Assembly (NCBI GenBank): GCA_016776505.1
Contig: JADHTG010000007.1
Location: forward strand, 1 to 64,000
DNA from: Bacteroidota bacterium
Lineage (GTDB): Bacteria > Bacteroidota > Bacteroidia > CAILMK01 > JAAYUY01
Length of the DNA stretch: 64,000 bases
Direction: 5' to 3'
Part shown: positions 11,509 to 19,187 of the stretch, one piece after another
How the letters are laid out: every line of letters begins with the position of its first letter
Numbering within the stretch: the first letter of the stretch is position 1
Program-made: the position numbers and the translations under genes
The notes under the pieces: model-generated
Told to the model about the DNA's origin: nothing
Databases searched by the model: none
Seen by the model: only the letters and a program-made list of their open reading frames with translations

Positions 11509-12297
11509 TTAGTTTTTAAAAATCCCCTTATTCAATACCCCATAGGCATTGAAACTGCTGCGTGCCGTAAAAAGTATAGTTAGAATCACAGAAACAGTTG
11601 TTACAACAAATATGGCTGTAACGATTGTAATTTGATATTTTACAGCAACCATCGGGCTGGAACCTCCAAGTATCTGTCCTGTCATCATACCGGGAATGGA
11701 AACAATACCAAAGGTAGCCATGCCTGCAATAAAAGGATTTACAGCACTTTTAAATCCTTCCCTGAAAAAGGGGAGGATGGCTTCCAACCTGGTTGCTCCA
11801 AGTGAAAGTTGGTAATGGTACCTATTCTCGTTTCTTTTTATGCTTTTATAGAAACTACTGACACCCACAATATTAGATCGAAGCGAGTTCCCCAATATCA
11901 TCCCTCCAATCGCAATCAGGTATTTGGCATCAAATATATTTTCCAGGTTCAGAATAACAATATTAAAGAAGAAAACTACCGACAGAGTGGAAATAGCCAA
12001 ACTCATAAAACTGGGGAAAAGCAATATCCTATACTTCAAATCTGAATTGCGAATCATAGAAACTGAGGCTACCAGTATCATGAACATTAGCCAGGCTATG
12101 TTGATGAAGGAATTATTTAGTTCAAACAAATACTCAAGGAATAAGCCAACAAGTAATAACTGAATACCCATCCTGAAAGAAGCAATCAATGTTCGTTTGA
12201 TAATCCCAATATTAAACCACCATGAAAATGCAATTGGGATCAGGATCAAAGCAAAGCCAATGATTAGTGGAAGTGTATTTATATCAACTGTTGACAT
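11509..12297 (-). CDS. fetB: FetB-type ABC transporter permease (UPF0014)
   Basis: Membrane subunit of the FetAB (YbbL/YbbM) exporter, implicated in iron export in Escherichia coli. About seven hydrophobic segments are visible. Family landmarks include ISLGATRLEAI-like LSLGATRLEAILPFFREGFK and the loop GIVSIPGMMTGQILGGSSPM. Start taken at ATG 12297 (MSTVDINTLPLIIGF), giving 262 residues; an upstream in-frame start would add a polar tail unlike the family and run into repeat sequence. Last gene of the citDE-citF-fetA-fetB unit, with an unusual 114-base gap to fetA. Confidence 0.9.
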   Translation of the reverse strand: MSTVDINTLPLIIGFALILIPIAFSWWFNIGIIKRTLIASFRMGIQLLLVGLFLEYLFELNNSFINIAWLMFMILVASVSMIRNSDLKYRILLFPSFMSLAISTLSVVFFFNIVILNLENIFDAKYLIAIGGMILGNSLRSNIVGVSSFYKSIKRNENRYHYQLSLGATRLEAILPFFREGFKSAVNPFIAGMATFGIVSIPGMMTGQILGGSSPMVAVKYQITIVTAIFVVTTVSVILTILFTARSSFNAYGVLNKGIFKN

Positions 12298-12304
12298 TAA
12301 ATAT

Positions 12305-12405
12305 GTTAATTTGCCACAAAGCCTTAAAGACACTAAGGTATCACAAATAGTGAATTATAACCTTTGTGAAACTTTGATATTTTGTGCCTCAATGGCCTTG
12401 TACTT
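12305..12405. repeat. Decayed inverted repeat between fetA and fetB
   Basis: GCCACAAAGCC near 12313 and TTTGTGCCTCAATGGCC near 12379-12395, with CACTAAGG and CCTTTGTG inside, form an imperfect palindrome. It resembles the CCAC-AAG-GCAC-AAG arms at 1759-2484. Its insertion would explain the only large gap in this operon. Confidence 0.4.
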
Positions 12406-12411
12406 CATGTA

Positions 12412-13035
12412 TTAATTCAGCTTAAATTCTTTTACTCCTTGTTTTTTCATCCATTCCTTATCATGACTAATGATAATGGCTGTATGATCACTCTCCATGA
12501 AATAACCAATTACTGTTTTCAAAACTTCATCATCCAGGCCTGAAGTGATTTCATCCAAAAAGAAAAAATCACGTTTCAATAAAATAGAAATGATAATGGC
12601 AACTCTTTTCTTTTCACCACCGGATAATTCCTCAAAATCTTTTGCAAGGGTTGATTCTTCCAACCTGAAAAAGTGAAACAATTCTTTGATTTTACCTGGA
12701 TCAGGCTTTAGTTTGATGTTGACTTTTAGAGAGAAAATATCCTCAATCAACTGACCTACTTTCCCTTCTCCAATATCACTATCCTGGGAAATATACCCAA
12801 TACTGCGCCGGACTTTCCAAATATTGTGGTGAGTAATAGTTTCATTTTGAAAGCTTATTTGACCTTCAAAACCAGGAATAAAACCCAAAATGAGCTTTAA
12901 TAAACTGGTCTTACCAGTTCCTGATGGACCACTGATGACCAGCTTATCCCCTTTATTTATACTTAAATTTATGTTTTCAAATAAACTTTGATCTTTAAAG
13001 CTTAAGCTGACATTATTTAGCTCTAATAGTGGCAT
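12412..13035 (-). CDS. fetA: FetA-type ABC transporter ATP-binding protein
   Basis: Cytosolic ATPase partner of FetB. 207 residues, short as usual for this family. Walker A GPSGTGKTSLLKLI at about residues 36-49, signature LSGGEKKRVAI, Walker B FFFLDEITSGLD and switch histidine IIISHD. It starts five bases after the citF stop, so it is in the citrate lyase transcript. The substrate is inferred from the family only. Confidence 0.9.
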   Translation of the reverse strand: MPLLELNNVSLSFKDQSLFENINLSINKGDKLVISGPSGTGKTSLLKLILGFIPGFEGQISFQNETITHHNIWKVRRSIGYISQDSDIGEGKVGQLIEDIFSLKVNIKLKPDPGKIKELFHFFRLEESTLAKDFEELSGGEKKRVAIIISILLKRDFFFLDEITSGLDDEVLKTVIGYFMESDHTAIIISHDKEWMKKQGVKEFKLN

Positions 13036-13040
13036 GCAGT

Positions 13041-14591
13041 TTATTCCTTGATTTTTCTAACGACATCGATGATCGTTCCATCTACCCATTTGATGGCTGC
13101 CACTATTTCATCATCGAATTCAATTTTTGCAGGAGCACCACATATCCGTTCGGCCTCCAACTTTAATTCTTGTATGCTCTTTATTGGCAGGTCTGAATTT
13201 TTGGTTGCATCTATCAGGTCTTTTCTCAATGGATTGATGGCAATACCCCTTTCCGTCACAATGACATCAATTAATTCTCCGGGGCCACATATGGTGGTCA
13301 CTTCATCTCTGATCACAGGAATTCTGTCTCTGAAAAGTGGAATGGGAAGAATAACTGTTTTGGATAGAAGGCAATTTTGCCAGCCTCCGATACCATGCAG
13401 CAGTATACCATCAGAATGAGTCACTACATTGGCATTGAAATCAAGATCCACTTCTGTAGCACCCAGAATGACCACATCCACCATGGTGTTAAAATTTCCC
13501 TTACCGTGGTAATTATAGGAAGTAAAAGGGCTTGTGTCGGTATGATTTGGATTTTCACGCATGGAGCGTACGCCTTCCAGATCAAAAGTTTGCCCATCCA
13601 AAATGTATTCAATAAGCCCTTCCTCCAGCATTTGAACTAAATATTTATTTGAGCCACCACGGGCAAATCGTGCTTTAATGCCCCTTTCACGCATAATGTC
13701 TCCAAAAAAGTTGCCAATGGAAAGAGCAGTTCCACCAGCACCAGCCTGGAAGGAAAATCCATCTTTTATCAAACCTGCCTGATCACAAAAGCTGGCTGAT
13801 AATTCTGCGAGTAAAAGTCTGTCAGGACTTCTTGTAATTTGAGTTGTTCCGGAGACAATTTTTTCAGGAATACCCACTTGTTCAACTTCAACAGTATAAT
13901 CCACGTTATTTCCCTGTATTTGCCATGGAACACATGGAAATGGAACCATGTTATCTGTCACCACGATCACTTTATCTGCATATTGTGAATCCGCAAGTGC
14001 GAAACCCAATAAACCACAAGCGGAAGATCCGGTCACTCCATTTGCATTTCCAAAAGGATCAGCAGTAGGCGCAGCAATGATTGCAATATCAATATGTACA
14101 TCTCCATCCTGTATCGCCTGGTATCTTCCGCCATGGGAACGAAGTATCCCTGTCCCTGTCATTTTTCCTTCTGATGTAAATTGACCCAAAGGTCCATTCA
14201 TACTGCCTTCAATGTGATGAATAACACCTGATTCAAGGTATTGTATTAAGTGTGCATGACAGGGAAAAGAAGCAGAAGGGACCCACACCAGGTCCTTCAT
14301 TCCCAATTCAGCAGCTATGTCAAACACCTGGTTTGCAATGATATCTCCATTTCTGAAATGATGATGAGTGGAGATGGTCATTCCATCTTTTAATCCTGAT
14401 TTGATCAGGGCTTCTTTAATTGAAGGGAGTCTTTTGTCGCCATCAGCAGGATAATCTGCTACGGAGCGTATAGGAATTGCAGCCTTAACACCTTTAGGTT
14501 TATATTTTCCAACTCCCTGAAAAGGGACCTGTTTTTTCCCGTTTAATTCATCGGGAACCATTCTGCCAATTGCATTTTTTATTAGTTTCAT
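13041..14591 (-). CDS. citF: Citrate lyase alpha subunit
   Basis: Citrate:acetyl-ACP transferase subunit: swaps citrate for acetate on the acyl carrier. 516 residues, normal length. The N-terminus MKLIKNAIGRMVPDEL and internal STHHHFRNGDIIANQV, GILRSHGGRYQAI, FQAGAGGTALSIG, and NANVVTHSDGILLHGIGGWQ are family hallmarks. It follows the CitD-CitE fusion by 11 bases. No citC (ligase), citX or citG was seen in the window, although these are needed to make and attach the prosthetic group. Confidence 0.94.
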   Translation of the reverse strand: MKLIKNAIGRMVPDELNGKKQVPFQGVGKYKPKGVKAAIPIRSVADYPADGDKRLPSIKEALIKSGLKDGMTISTHHHFRNGDIIANQVFDIAAELGMKDLVWVPSASFPCHAHLIQYLESGVIHHIEGSMNGPLGQFTSEGKMTGTGILRSHGGRYQAIQDGDVHIDIAIIAAPTADPFGNANGVTGSSACGLLGFALADSQYADKVIVVTDNMVPFPCVPWQIQGNNVDYTVEVEQVGIPEKIVSGTTQITRSPDRLLLAELSASFCDQAGLIKDGFSFQAGAGGTALSIGNFFGDIMRERGIKARFARGGSNKYLVQMLEEGLIEYILDGQTFDLEGVRSMRENPNHTDTSPFTSYNYHGKGNFNTMVDVVILGATEVDLDFNANVVTHSDGILLHGIGGWQNCLLSKTVILPIPLFRDRIPVIRDEVTTICGPGELIDVIVTERGIAINPLRKDLIDATKNSDLPIKSIQELKLEAERICGAPAKIEFDDEIVAAIKWVDGTIIDVVRKIKE

Positions 14592-14602
14592 GATGTCTGC
14601 CT

Positions 14603-15826
14603 TTAATTATCCATTTCAGATTCTTTCCAGTTCTTTCCCAGTTTATTCAATGATATTGCGGTTTCAATAAGTTTAAGAGCCCTTTTAACTACTGGCGGAT
14701 CAATCATTTTTGAGCCCAATGAAACAACCCCAAGACCTTTTTCCTGTGCCTCATCAAATGCCAATACAATTCTTTTTGCCTTTGTTAACTCAACAGGATC
14801 AGGAGCATAGTTTTCGTGAATAACAGGAATTTGTCGGGGGTGAATGCATCCCATACCCTCAAAGCCAAGTCCTTTTGAAACCCATATCGTTTGTTTGAGG
14901 GCTTCCAGATCATCCACATCTGAAAACACAGAATCTATCGCTTGTATTCCAGCTGCCTTGGCCGCATTCACCAAAGCTGACCTGGCATAAAAAGACTCCA
15001 GGGCTTCCTGACTTCTTTTTGCTCCTATATCCGCAGTATAATCCTCCAATCCAATGGCTAAAGCCACCACATTCGCTGAGGCTTTGGCAATGGGGAAGGC
15101 ATTAATAACGCCCAAAGCACTTTCAATAATAGGCATATACCAAATGGGATAGTCCATTCCTTTTTCCTTCCGGATCTCTTTAATTCTGTTGTCCACATCT
15201 ATTATTTGCTGAGCATTTTCAACCTTAGGTATGAGAATTAAATTAACATGATGAGGAACTATAAAATTTAAGTCCTCCAGGCCATTTGGAATTTGATTGA
15301 TTCGAACCATTCTTTCAGAACCGTAAAAATTCACTGACCGAAGTGCGTTTCTAACCATAAACCTGGCTTCATGCTTTTTATCCGGAGCAACAGAATCTTC
15401 CAGGTCAAGTATGATGGCGTGGGATTGATAGATCCCTGAATTGATGAATAATTTAGGTGAATTTCCAGGCAGGTATAAACGGGAAAATCTAATTTGATCG
15501 CGCTCGGTATGATATTTATTATCAGCTATTTGATCAAATAGAAACTCTTTTTTATTGGGTTTTATTAATTGAATAACAGCTTCCAGCCGGGCTGCAATGA
15601 CAAATTCCAGGGCACCCCGGTCCTCTATTACCACATGAGCATGCTCCATATTGAAAAACTGTAAAACAGATTTTATTAAAGTCCGGATTGAATCGCCATA
15701 TAAAGTGCCCACTTTGCTTTTAAGCTCTATTTGAATTCCCCCGGAGGATTTTAATTCAATTTCAACATAGCAATCCGACTTCACATGGTCGCTTTTATTA
15801 CCTGAGCTTGCTCTTAATTGATTCAT
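14603..15826 (-). CDS. Citrate lyase acyl carrier (CitD)-beta subunit (CitE) fusion
   Basis: 407 residues in two domains. Residues 1-90 match CitD, the acyl carrier: VEIELKSSGGIQIELKS, GDSIRTLIKSVL and VIEDRGALEFVIAARLEA. From about residue 113 it is CitE, the citryl-ACP oxaloacetate lyase of the HpcH/HpaI aldolase family: RLYLPGNSPKLF, ILDLEDSVAP, MVRINQ, IPKVEN, MPIIESALGV, ALGLEDY-like AIGLEDYTADIG and GCIHPRQI. The serine that would carry the prosthetic group is ambiguous (S12 or S17). Normally these are separate genes. First gene of the operon; the upstream gap is 175 bases, AT-rich, with no clear promoter. Confidence 0.88.
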   Translation of the reverse strand: MNQLRASSGNKSDHVKSDCYVEIELKSSGGIQIELKSKVGTLYGDSIRTLIKSVLQFFNMEHAHVVIEDRGALEFVIAARLEAVIQLIKPNKKEFLFDQIADNKYHTERDQIRFSRLYLPGNSPKLFINSGIYQSHAIILDLEDSVAPDKKHEARFMVRNALRSVNFYGSERMVRINQIPNGLEDLNFIVPHHVNLILIPKVENAQQIIDVDNRIKEIRKEKGMDYPIWYMPIIESALGVINAFPIAKASANVVALAIGLEDYTADIGAKRSQEALESFYARSALVNAAKAAGIQAIDSVFSDVDDLEALKQTIWVSKGLGFEGMGCIHPRQIPVIHENYAPDPVELTKAKRIVLAFDEAQEKGLGVVSLGSKMIDPPVVKRALKLIETAISLNKLGKNWKESEMDN

Positions 15827-18212: not shown

Positions 18213-18245
18213 AAAAAAAAACTGAGACTAAGCTCAGTTTTTTTA
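18213..18245 (+). terminator. Intrinsic terminator after the GMC operon
   Basis: A-run, CTGAG (18222-18226), loop, CTCAG (18233-18237), then seven T. The flanking A and T runs extend the stem, so it may act in both directions and also end the convergent KCGEG lipoprotein transcript. Confidence 0.85.
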
Positions 18246-18257
18246 GTTTAAATCAGA

Positions 18258-18557
18258 TTAATTACCATCATCCGCAGAAACTTCTTCAGTAGTTTCCATG
18301 TCCATGGCCTCTTCATCACTACCTTCTCCACATTTACCTTCTCCGCATTTTCCTTCTCCGCATTTCCCTTCTCCACATTTTCCTTCTCCACATTTCATCT
18401 CGGCATCAGCATTCGCATCTGTTTCTGCATCATCGGATATAGATTCTTCAGTTGCGTCATCTTTCGCTTCATTGCAAGAAGTCATGATAACTGTTGTAAA
18501 AGATACCATAGCAATAATTGCAAATAAAGTAATTAGATTTCTGAATTGTTTTTTCAT
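18258..18557 (-). CDS. Lipoprotein with five tandem KCGEG repeats
   Basis: 99 residues. Signal peptide with lipobox VIMTSC (Cys28), an acidic stretch, five perfect KCGEG units at residues 55-79 (bases 18321-18395), and an acidic tail rich in Glu, Asp and Met. The KCGEG/EGKCG pattern is that of HvfA-type precursor peptides whose cysteines are modified to thiooxazole-type groups by DUF692 (MNIO) enzymes, in copper-related systems. Those are usually signal-peptide proteins, though not normally lipoproteins, and no DUF692 or partner gene is in the window. A plain metal-binding lipoprotein is the alternative. It has its own promoter-like sequence. Confidence 0.8.
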   Translation of the reverse strand: MKKQFRNLITLFAIIAMVSFTTVIMTSCNEAKDDATEESISDDAETDANADAEMKCGEGKCGEGKCGEGKCGEGKCGEGSDEEAMDMETTEEVSADDGN

Positions 18558-18585: not shown

Positions 18586-18615
18586 CAAATTTATGAATAT
18601 AACATGATTAAACAA
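18586..18615 (-). promoter_or_regulatory. Candidate Bacteroidota promoter for the KCGEG lipoprotein
   Basis: Minus strand: TTG at 18615-18613, 19 bases, then TAAATTTG at 18593-18586, about 29 bases before the ATG. Both the spacing and the -7 box match the phylum consensus. Confidence 0.5.
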
Positions 18616-18668: not shown

Positions 18669-19148
18669 TTAATCCATCAGTTTATCTAATGAATTCGTAG
18701 AAACATAATGATCATTTTTTCTGGCTGTTTTATAAACTGTTTTGGCGAATTTTTTATATGCATTATTGAAGAGCAATGCAGTATAAATCCGAAGCAGGAA
18801 TTTTCGTCTGCCCACTGTCATGAGAAATTCCTCGAGCTTAAAAAATATTTTTGAGTAGTAATTAGTAATATAGGATTTAAGCCATTTGTCAAATTTTTCC
18901 CTGCCTAGGAATTTCACTTTTTTGGAAAGTGTAAATTCAGTCTTACGAAGTGGATTTAATTCCACTTGTTGAATTTCCATATCATGGGTGTCAAGTATAA
19001 GAAGGTCAGTTTAATTAACATGGATGATATCATATGTCGCTTTTCCTGTAATAACCCGATTTTCAAAATCAATATTCAGGTCCAGATGAATATGTGTGCT
19101 GTATACGTCTTGAAAATTGGATAGGATGTGATGATCAGTGAGATACAT
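18669..19148 (-). pseudogene. M1 family aminopeptidase remnant with large internal deletion
   Basis: The frame from ATG 19148 reads MYLTDHHILSNFQDVYSTHI, HLDLNIDFENRVITGKATYD, then a TAA, then LLILDTHDMEIQQVELNP: the N-terminal sheet domain of LTA4H-like M1 metallopeptidases (compare VDFxxKxxxGTATYDI and LDTRDLxIxKV). In the same frame, with no zinc-site region (no GAMEN, no HExxH), it reaches LEEFLMTVGRRKFLLRIYTA and YKTARKNDHYVSTNSLDKLM, the C-terminal helical domain. Only about 160 codons remain of an expected 600 or so. Only the downstream part stays open, as a 103-codon frame from 18980. Confidence 0.8.
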
Positions 19149-19187
19149 GTATTCGGATTCAACTTAAGATGATAAAAAAGGGTTCAC

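Follow-up and report, generated by a model that had tools for sequence, protein, structure and literature searches.

The pentamer KCGEG is commonly read as the mark of thiooxazole copper peptides made by MNIO (DUF692) enzymes, and an NCBIfam repeat model labels any KCGEG-repeat protein a modified RiPP metallophore. In the stretch of Bacteroidota DNA analysed here (64,000 nucleotides, hereafter the window), a 99-residue open reading frame on the minus strand (18258-18557) encodes five perfect KCGEG units, which raises the question of whether its product is such a peptide and, if not, what the pentamer does there. The window genome (G000; 3.33 Mb, 129 contigs, 93% complete) was compared with one congener (G001, 96% complete).

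The translation, which reads MKKQFRNLITLFAIIAMVSFTTVIMTSC/NEAKDD...EM(KCGEG)x5 SDEEAMDMETTEEVSADDGN, has the features of a bacterial lipoprotein. A signal peptide with a basic N-terminus and a hydrophobic core (aa 1-27; 18477..18557, on the minus strand like all features of this gene) is predicted to be cut before the lipobox cysteine Cys28 (MTSC; 18474..18476), and is followed by an acidic linker beginning NEAKDDATEE (aa 29-54; 18396..18473), the five tandem KCGEG units (aa 55-79; 18321..18395), and an acidic tail with the stop codon (aa 80-99; 18258..18320). The Cys28 lipobox, five units, and acidic tail described in an earlier note on this DNA are thus all present. The DNA units encoding the repeats, AAATGTGGAGAAGGA/G, AAATGCGGAGAAGGA/T, and AAATGTGGAGAAGGT, differ from one another, all of the differences being silent, and KCGEG was absent from a six-frame translation of the rest of the window. 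Lipobox calls here are sequence patterns, and the lipidation that the note had predicted is supported in this sense by MTSC, which is kept in the congener (LTSC in genus g146, described below). The NEAKDD that follows Cys28 is partly like the Bacteroidota lipoprotein export signal, K-(D/E)2 after the cysteine with lysine best at +3 (PMC5080379), but its lysine is at +5, and the congener has C-DNADED, without lysine, where the window protein has C-NEA-KDD. An AlphaFold2 model built from a five-row alignment had a mean pLDDT of 51, with the signal helix as its sole fold and no fold in the repeats. A conotoxin match in Pfam fell below threshold and was put down to composition, as were the three PDB matches, all protein A constructs (best E 8e-4, aa 23-55), which fell on the acidic linker rather than on the repeats.

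The lipoprotein gene stands alone, converging on a GMC oxidoreductase gene across an intrinsic terminator with a 12-pair stem and a T tail (18215..18244, minus strand) that is kept in the congener, and in both species the flanks are GMC oxidoreductase and sortilin/BNR genes. A promoter-like sequence belonging to the gene itself had also been noted. A sigma-70 scan found no promoter, but a putative Bacteroidota-type promoter can be recognized by eye 28-58 bp upstream (18586..18615, minus strand), composed of TTG (18615-18613), 19 nt, and TAAATTTG (18593-18586), and at the equivalent position the congener has, also by eye, TTG and TATATTCG at the identical 19-nt spacing. No metal gene was identified beside the lipoprotein gene, and DoxX had no match among the neighbour genes scanned. 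Upstream lies a fragment (18669-19160, minus strand) matching Leuk-A4-hydro_C of M1 peptidases; in-frame sequence upstream of this fragment, across a stop, resembles the M1 N-terminal region by eye, and an internally deleted pseudogene is the probable explanation. It was left out of the finding because it is absent at the congener's locus.

The resemblance to HvfA-type peptides that had been proposed for this protein holds for the repeat, since NF050137, the NCBIfam HvfA repeat domain, matches at 29.2 bits against a cut-off of 19.5. The full-length HvfA equivalog, NF050188, was not reached (27.7 bits, cut-off 95), but this failure does not discriminate and is no argument against membership, because the MNIO-linked Bacteroidota precursors L003 and L111 also fall below that cut-off. 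On enzyme content, by contrast, the likeness does not extend to family membership. Profile searches gave no match to MNIO/DUF692 (PF05114) or to HvfC/DUF2063 (PF09836) in the window genome or the congener (93% and 96% complete assemblies), whereas in controls MNIO-bearing genomes of the same class scored E of about 1e-95 with PF05114, and PF09836 was found in six of six MNIO-positive genomes. MNIO was likewise lacking in ten genomes from other genera of the same family and order (G002-G011). YcaO, a family unrelated to MNIO that modifies cysteines or the backbone in peptides, was ruled out as an alternative modifier by its absence from all nine genomes searched, the window genome and congener included. 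The earlier note had seen no DUF692, DUF2063, or DoxX gene nearby and had proposed a genome-wide DUF692 search, an empty result of which would count towards refuting its interpretation; for DUF692 and DUF2063 the lack is now genome-wide, within the limits of a 93%-complete assembly, and for DoxX it applies to the neighbours scanned. Of the two readings that the note had offered, an orphan precursor modified in trans is disfavoured by the missing MNIO, HvfC, and YcaO matches in genome and congener. Modification in trans by another organism's enzyme is also unlikely, because known MNIOs are cytoplasmic, action in the cytoplasm before export having been stated for DybH (PMC12636315).

Comparison with the congener indicates that the gene is maintained under purifying selection and is not decaying. 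The syntenic orthologue (L002) is 67% identical over the aligned stretch, with dN of 0.20 and a near-saturated synonymous divergence (dS 1.26, against 2.1 for one neighbour and saturation for the other). The 25 aligned pentamer codons contain 10 silent and no replacement differences, versus about 20 silent and 33 replacement differences elsewhere in its sequence (Fisher p = 2e-4). The array itself has been rearranged, from five in a row in the window protein to three plus two in the congener or the reverse, yet each has exactly five units, and it is their retention at near-saturated synonymous divergence that argues for maintenance. A decaying relic of an oxazolin locus, left after enzyme loss, is therefore barely credible: loss of function has been suggested for rare orphan peptides (PMC12452194), and MNIO, present in most genera of family f8, is lacking in the orphan genus g146, but the reading frame here is intact, the terminator and the number of units are kept, and the absence of MNIO from G002-G011 gives no sign of recent loss in the lineage.

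The lysine, glutamate, and glycines of the pentamer are kept as strictly as the cysteine, which exceeds the need of plain thiol metal binding and is compatible with a modifying enzyme not yet recognized or with a structural constraint. If the pentamers were modified by an enzyme belonging to neither MNIO nor YcaO, conservation of the whole unit in an otherwise diverging protein would be explained, and the same pentamer recurs in several Bacteroidota lineages that lack MNIO. We nevertheless regard this as improbable, as no candidate enzyme was found, YcaO is absent, and the orphan lineages have no conserved neighbour gene in common; moreover, uniform units could also result from a structural constraint or from exchange among the copies.

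To place the window protein among its relatives, we sampled 395 genomes of the class, of which 20 matched NF050137 and 15 of these also PF05114; the MNIO gene adjoins the precursor in all 15. The five genomes with the repeat and without MNIO are the two of the window genus (g1), G028, G256, and G265. Three more genomes with MNIO came from a phylum sample and five from family f8, which also yielded two other species of g146, the genus of G265, both without MNIO; a contig scan contributed L061, with no MNIO in its genome, and L098, identical in protein sequence to that of G759; a scan of the family around G028 covered one genome only. Among the 37 proteins of the Bacteroidota set, a lipobox was found in 1 of 26 with MNIO versus 8 of 11 without (p = 3e-5, a descriptive value uncorrected for kinship among related rows). 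Precursors beside MNIO have a Sec signal and, in 24 of 26 cases, an LGSGAELR-like segment, whereas the eight MNIO-less lipoproteins, which come from g1, g146, G028, and L061, are without this segment. The three MNIO-less proteins that are not lipidated are L156 (G265), L084, which lies beside DoxX near a contig end, and L013 (G256), a KCGEG/KCGD gene apparently frameshifted near its end and with no evident signal peptide.

A leader HMM built from the N-terminal regions of 25 MNIO-linked precursors scored 62-93 bits on 24 of its training members, 30 on L003, and 13-88 in leave-one-out runs, but 0.7 bits on the window protein, which has no LGSGAELR-like segment. These traits have exceptions. L111 of Cytophaga aurantiaca, which is lipidated and has an adjacent MNIO, also scored low (15.6 bits), so that a missing leader segment is no proof against modification, and because L111, L105 of Neisseria wadsworthii (also with adjacent MNIO), and NedA of N. 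dentiae are all lipidated EGKCG peptides with an MNIO, neither is lipidation.

The lipidated, enzyme-less combination recurs in three species of g146, one of which (G265) is assembled as a single contig. That contig encodes three KCGEG proteins (L008, L027, and L156), two with a lipobox, one of them rich in further Cys-Lys repeats, and had no match to MNIO, DUF2063, or YcaO. In two g146 assemblies (L027, L098) the KCGEG lipoprotein gene lies about 100 bp after a FAD-linked oxidase/4Fe-4S gene, the counterpart neighbour in g1 being the GMC oxidoreductase. An acidic low-complexity linker is common to the orphan proteins, which are of low complexity outside the repeats and may or may not form one family by descent. 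Related proteins were also seen outside the Bacteroidota set: five Colwelliaceae loci (L068, L070, L075, L103, L129) encode Sec-type EGKCG proteins in genomes without PF05114, and a Lysobacterales MAG with no PF05114 match encodes a KCGEG/KCDGKGKDGK lipoprotein (L064) with a second Cys-rich fragment just upstream.

Known systems match the window protein in part. HvfA/oxazolin and the EGKCG captophorins (fontiphorin, gonophorin) are likewise small, acidic, exported proteins with tandem EGKCG/KCGEG repeats, but they come with an MNIO and a DUF2063 partner, as a rule encoded next to them, and most have SPI signals, where the window protein has a lipobox and neither MNIO nor partner was found in its genome. 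In HvfA/oxazolin the cysteines become 5-thiooxazoles (PMC12668002, PMC13419390), and HvfBC prefers HvfA with its Sec signal retained, the signal acting like a leader (PMC13419390). MNIO-linked Bacteroidota precursors such as L005, L007, and L053 share phylum and pentamer with the window protein but have the Sec signal, LGSGAELR-like segment, and adjacent MNIO that it lacks. NedA, a lipidated oxazolin (DAG-RiPP), shares both lipobox and EGKCG repeats, and its lipidation and a change of -12 Da for three motifs (three changes of -4 Da) were shown experimentally (PMC12636315); it is, however, coexpressed with and modified by NedBC, and no such genes were found for the window protein. Published orphan EGKCG precursors share with it a precursor gene in a genome without MNIO, a situation recorded for 67 of 2583 complete genomes (PMC12452194, Table 3), and it has been suggested that these rare peptides either function unmodified or have no function; in the sections of that paper drawn on here they are not described as lipidated or as kept within genera. 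In the literature we found no report of the lipidated, orphan EGKCG combination as a conserved class, each feature having been published alone, and a lipidated, enzyme-less protein kept within at least two genera is thus a new combination.

The precedent of NedA, the rarity of published orphans, and the above-threshold repeat domain would be consistent with a genuine RiPP of the oxazolin type, its MNIO and partner genes having fallen into the gaps of both assemblies. We consider this very improbable, given that PF05114 and PF09836 are lacking in both congeners, that MNIO adjoins the precursor in the 15 class genomes whereas here the flanking genes are others in both species, and that the same enzyme-less combination is found in g146, including its single-contig genome.

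We give instead about an even chance to a lipidated envelope protein whose cysteines remain unmodified and which binds Cu(I) or Zn or buffers thiols. The product of the single gene would leave the cytoplasm through Sec, receive its lipid on Cys28, and be anchored in the envelope, probably in the outer membrane and perhaps exposed at the surface, where the flexible acidic linker could hold five cysteines, spaced five residues apart, away from the membrane. Since no MNIO was found in the lineage, these cysteines most likely stay free thiols, a case made mainly by the missing enzymes, and they might serve as a redox buffer or as ligands for a soft metal such as Cu(I), or for Zn(II). The second reading in the earlier note, an unmodified metal-binding lipoprotein, accordingly fares better than modification in trans, with the metal part suggested by analogy with modified EGKCG peptides, which bind copper; no metal gene was identified next to this one. 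An envelope thiol or structural acidic lipoprotein with no relation to metal, its repeat resemblance convergent, is unlikely but deserves consideration; it would suit both the acidic low-complexity linker common to the orphans and the lack of an identified metal gene nearby, although in several lineages the pentamer exactly matches a repeat known to bind copper.

More broadly, we suggest tentatively, as a possibility short of probable, that lipoproteins with KCGEG repeats are a recurrent class in Bacteroidota, independent of MNIO, whose functional unit is the oxazolin pentamer itself, either as membrane-tethered free thiols or as the substrate of some undiscovered enzyme family. Where the exact pentamer is kept without an enzyme, either the motif is functional in its own right, and the metallophore annotation misleads for such proteins, or its conservation points to an unknown modifying enzyme.

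Two other loci in the window may be of interest. At 13041-15826 (minus strand), CitF (citrate lyase alpha) is encoded next to a protein in which an ACP/CitD-type domain precedes an HpcH/HpaI (CitE-type) domain, an apparent CitD-CitE fusion. At 11509-13035 (minus strand), a UPF0014 membrane protein gene adjoins an ABC ATPase gene, a pair that we take to resemble the FetAB iron exporter.
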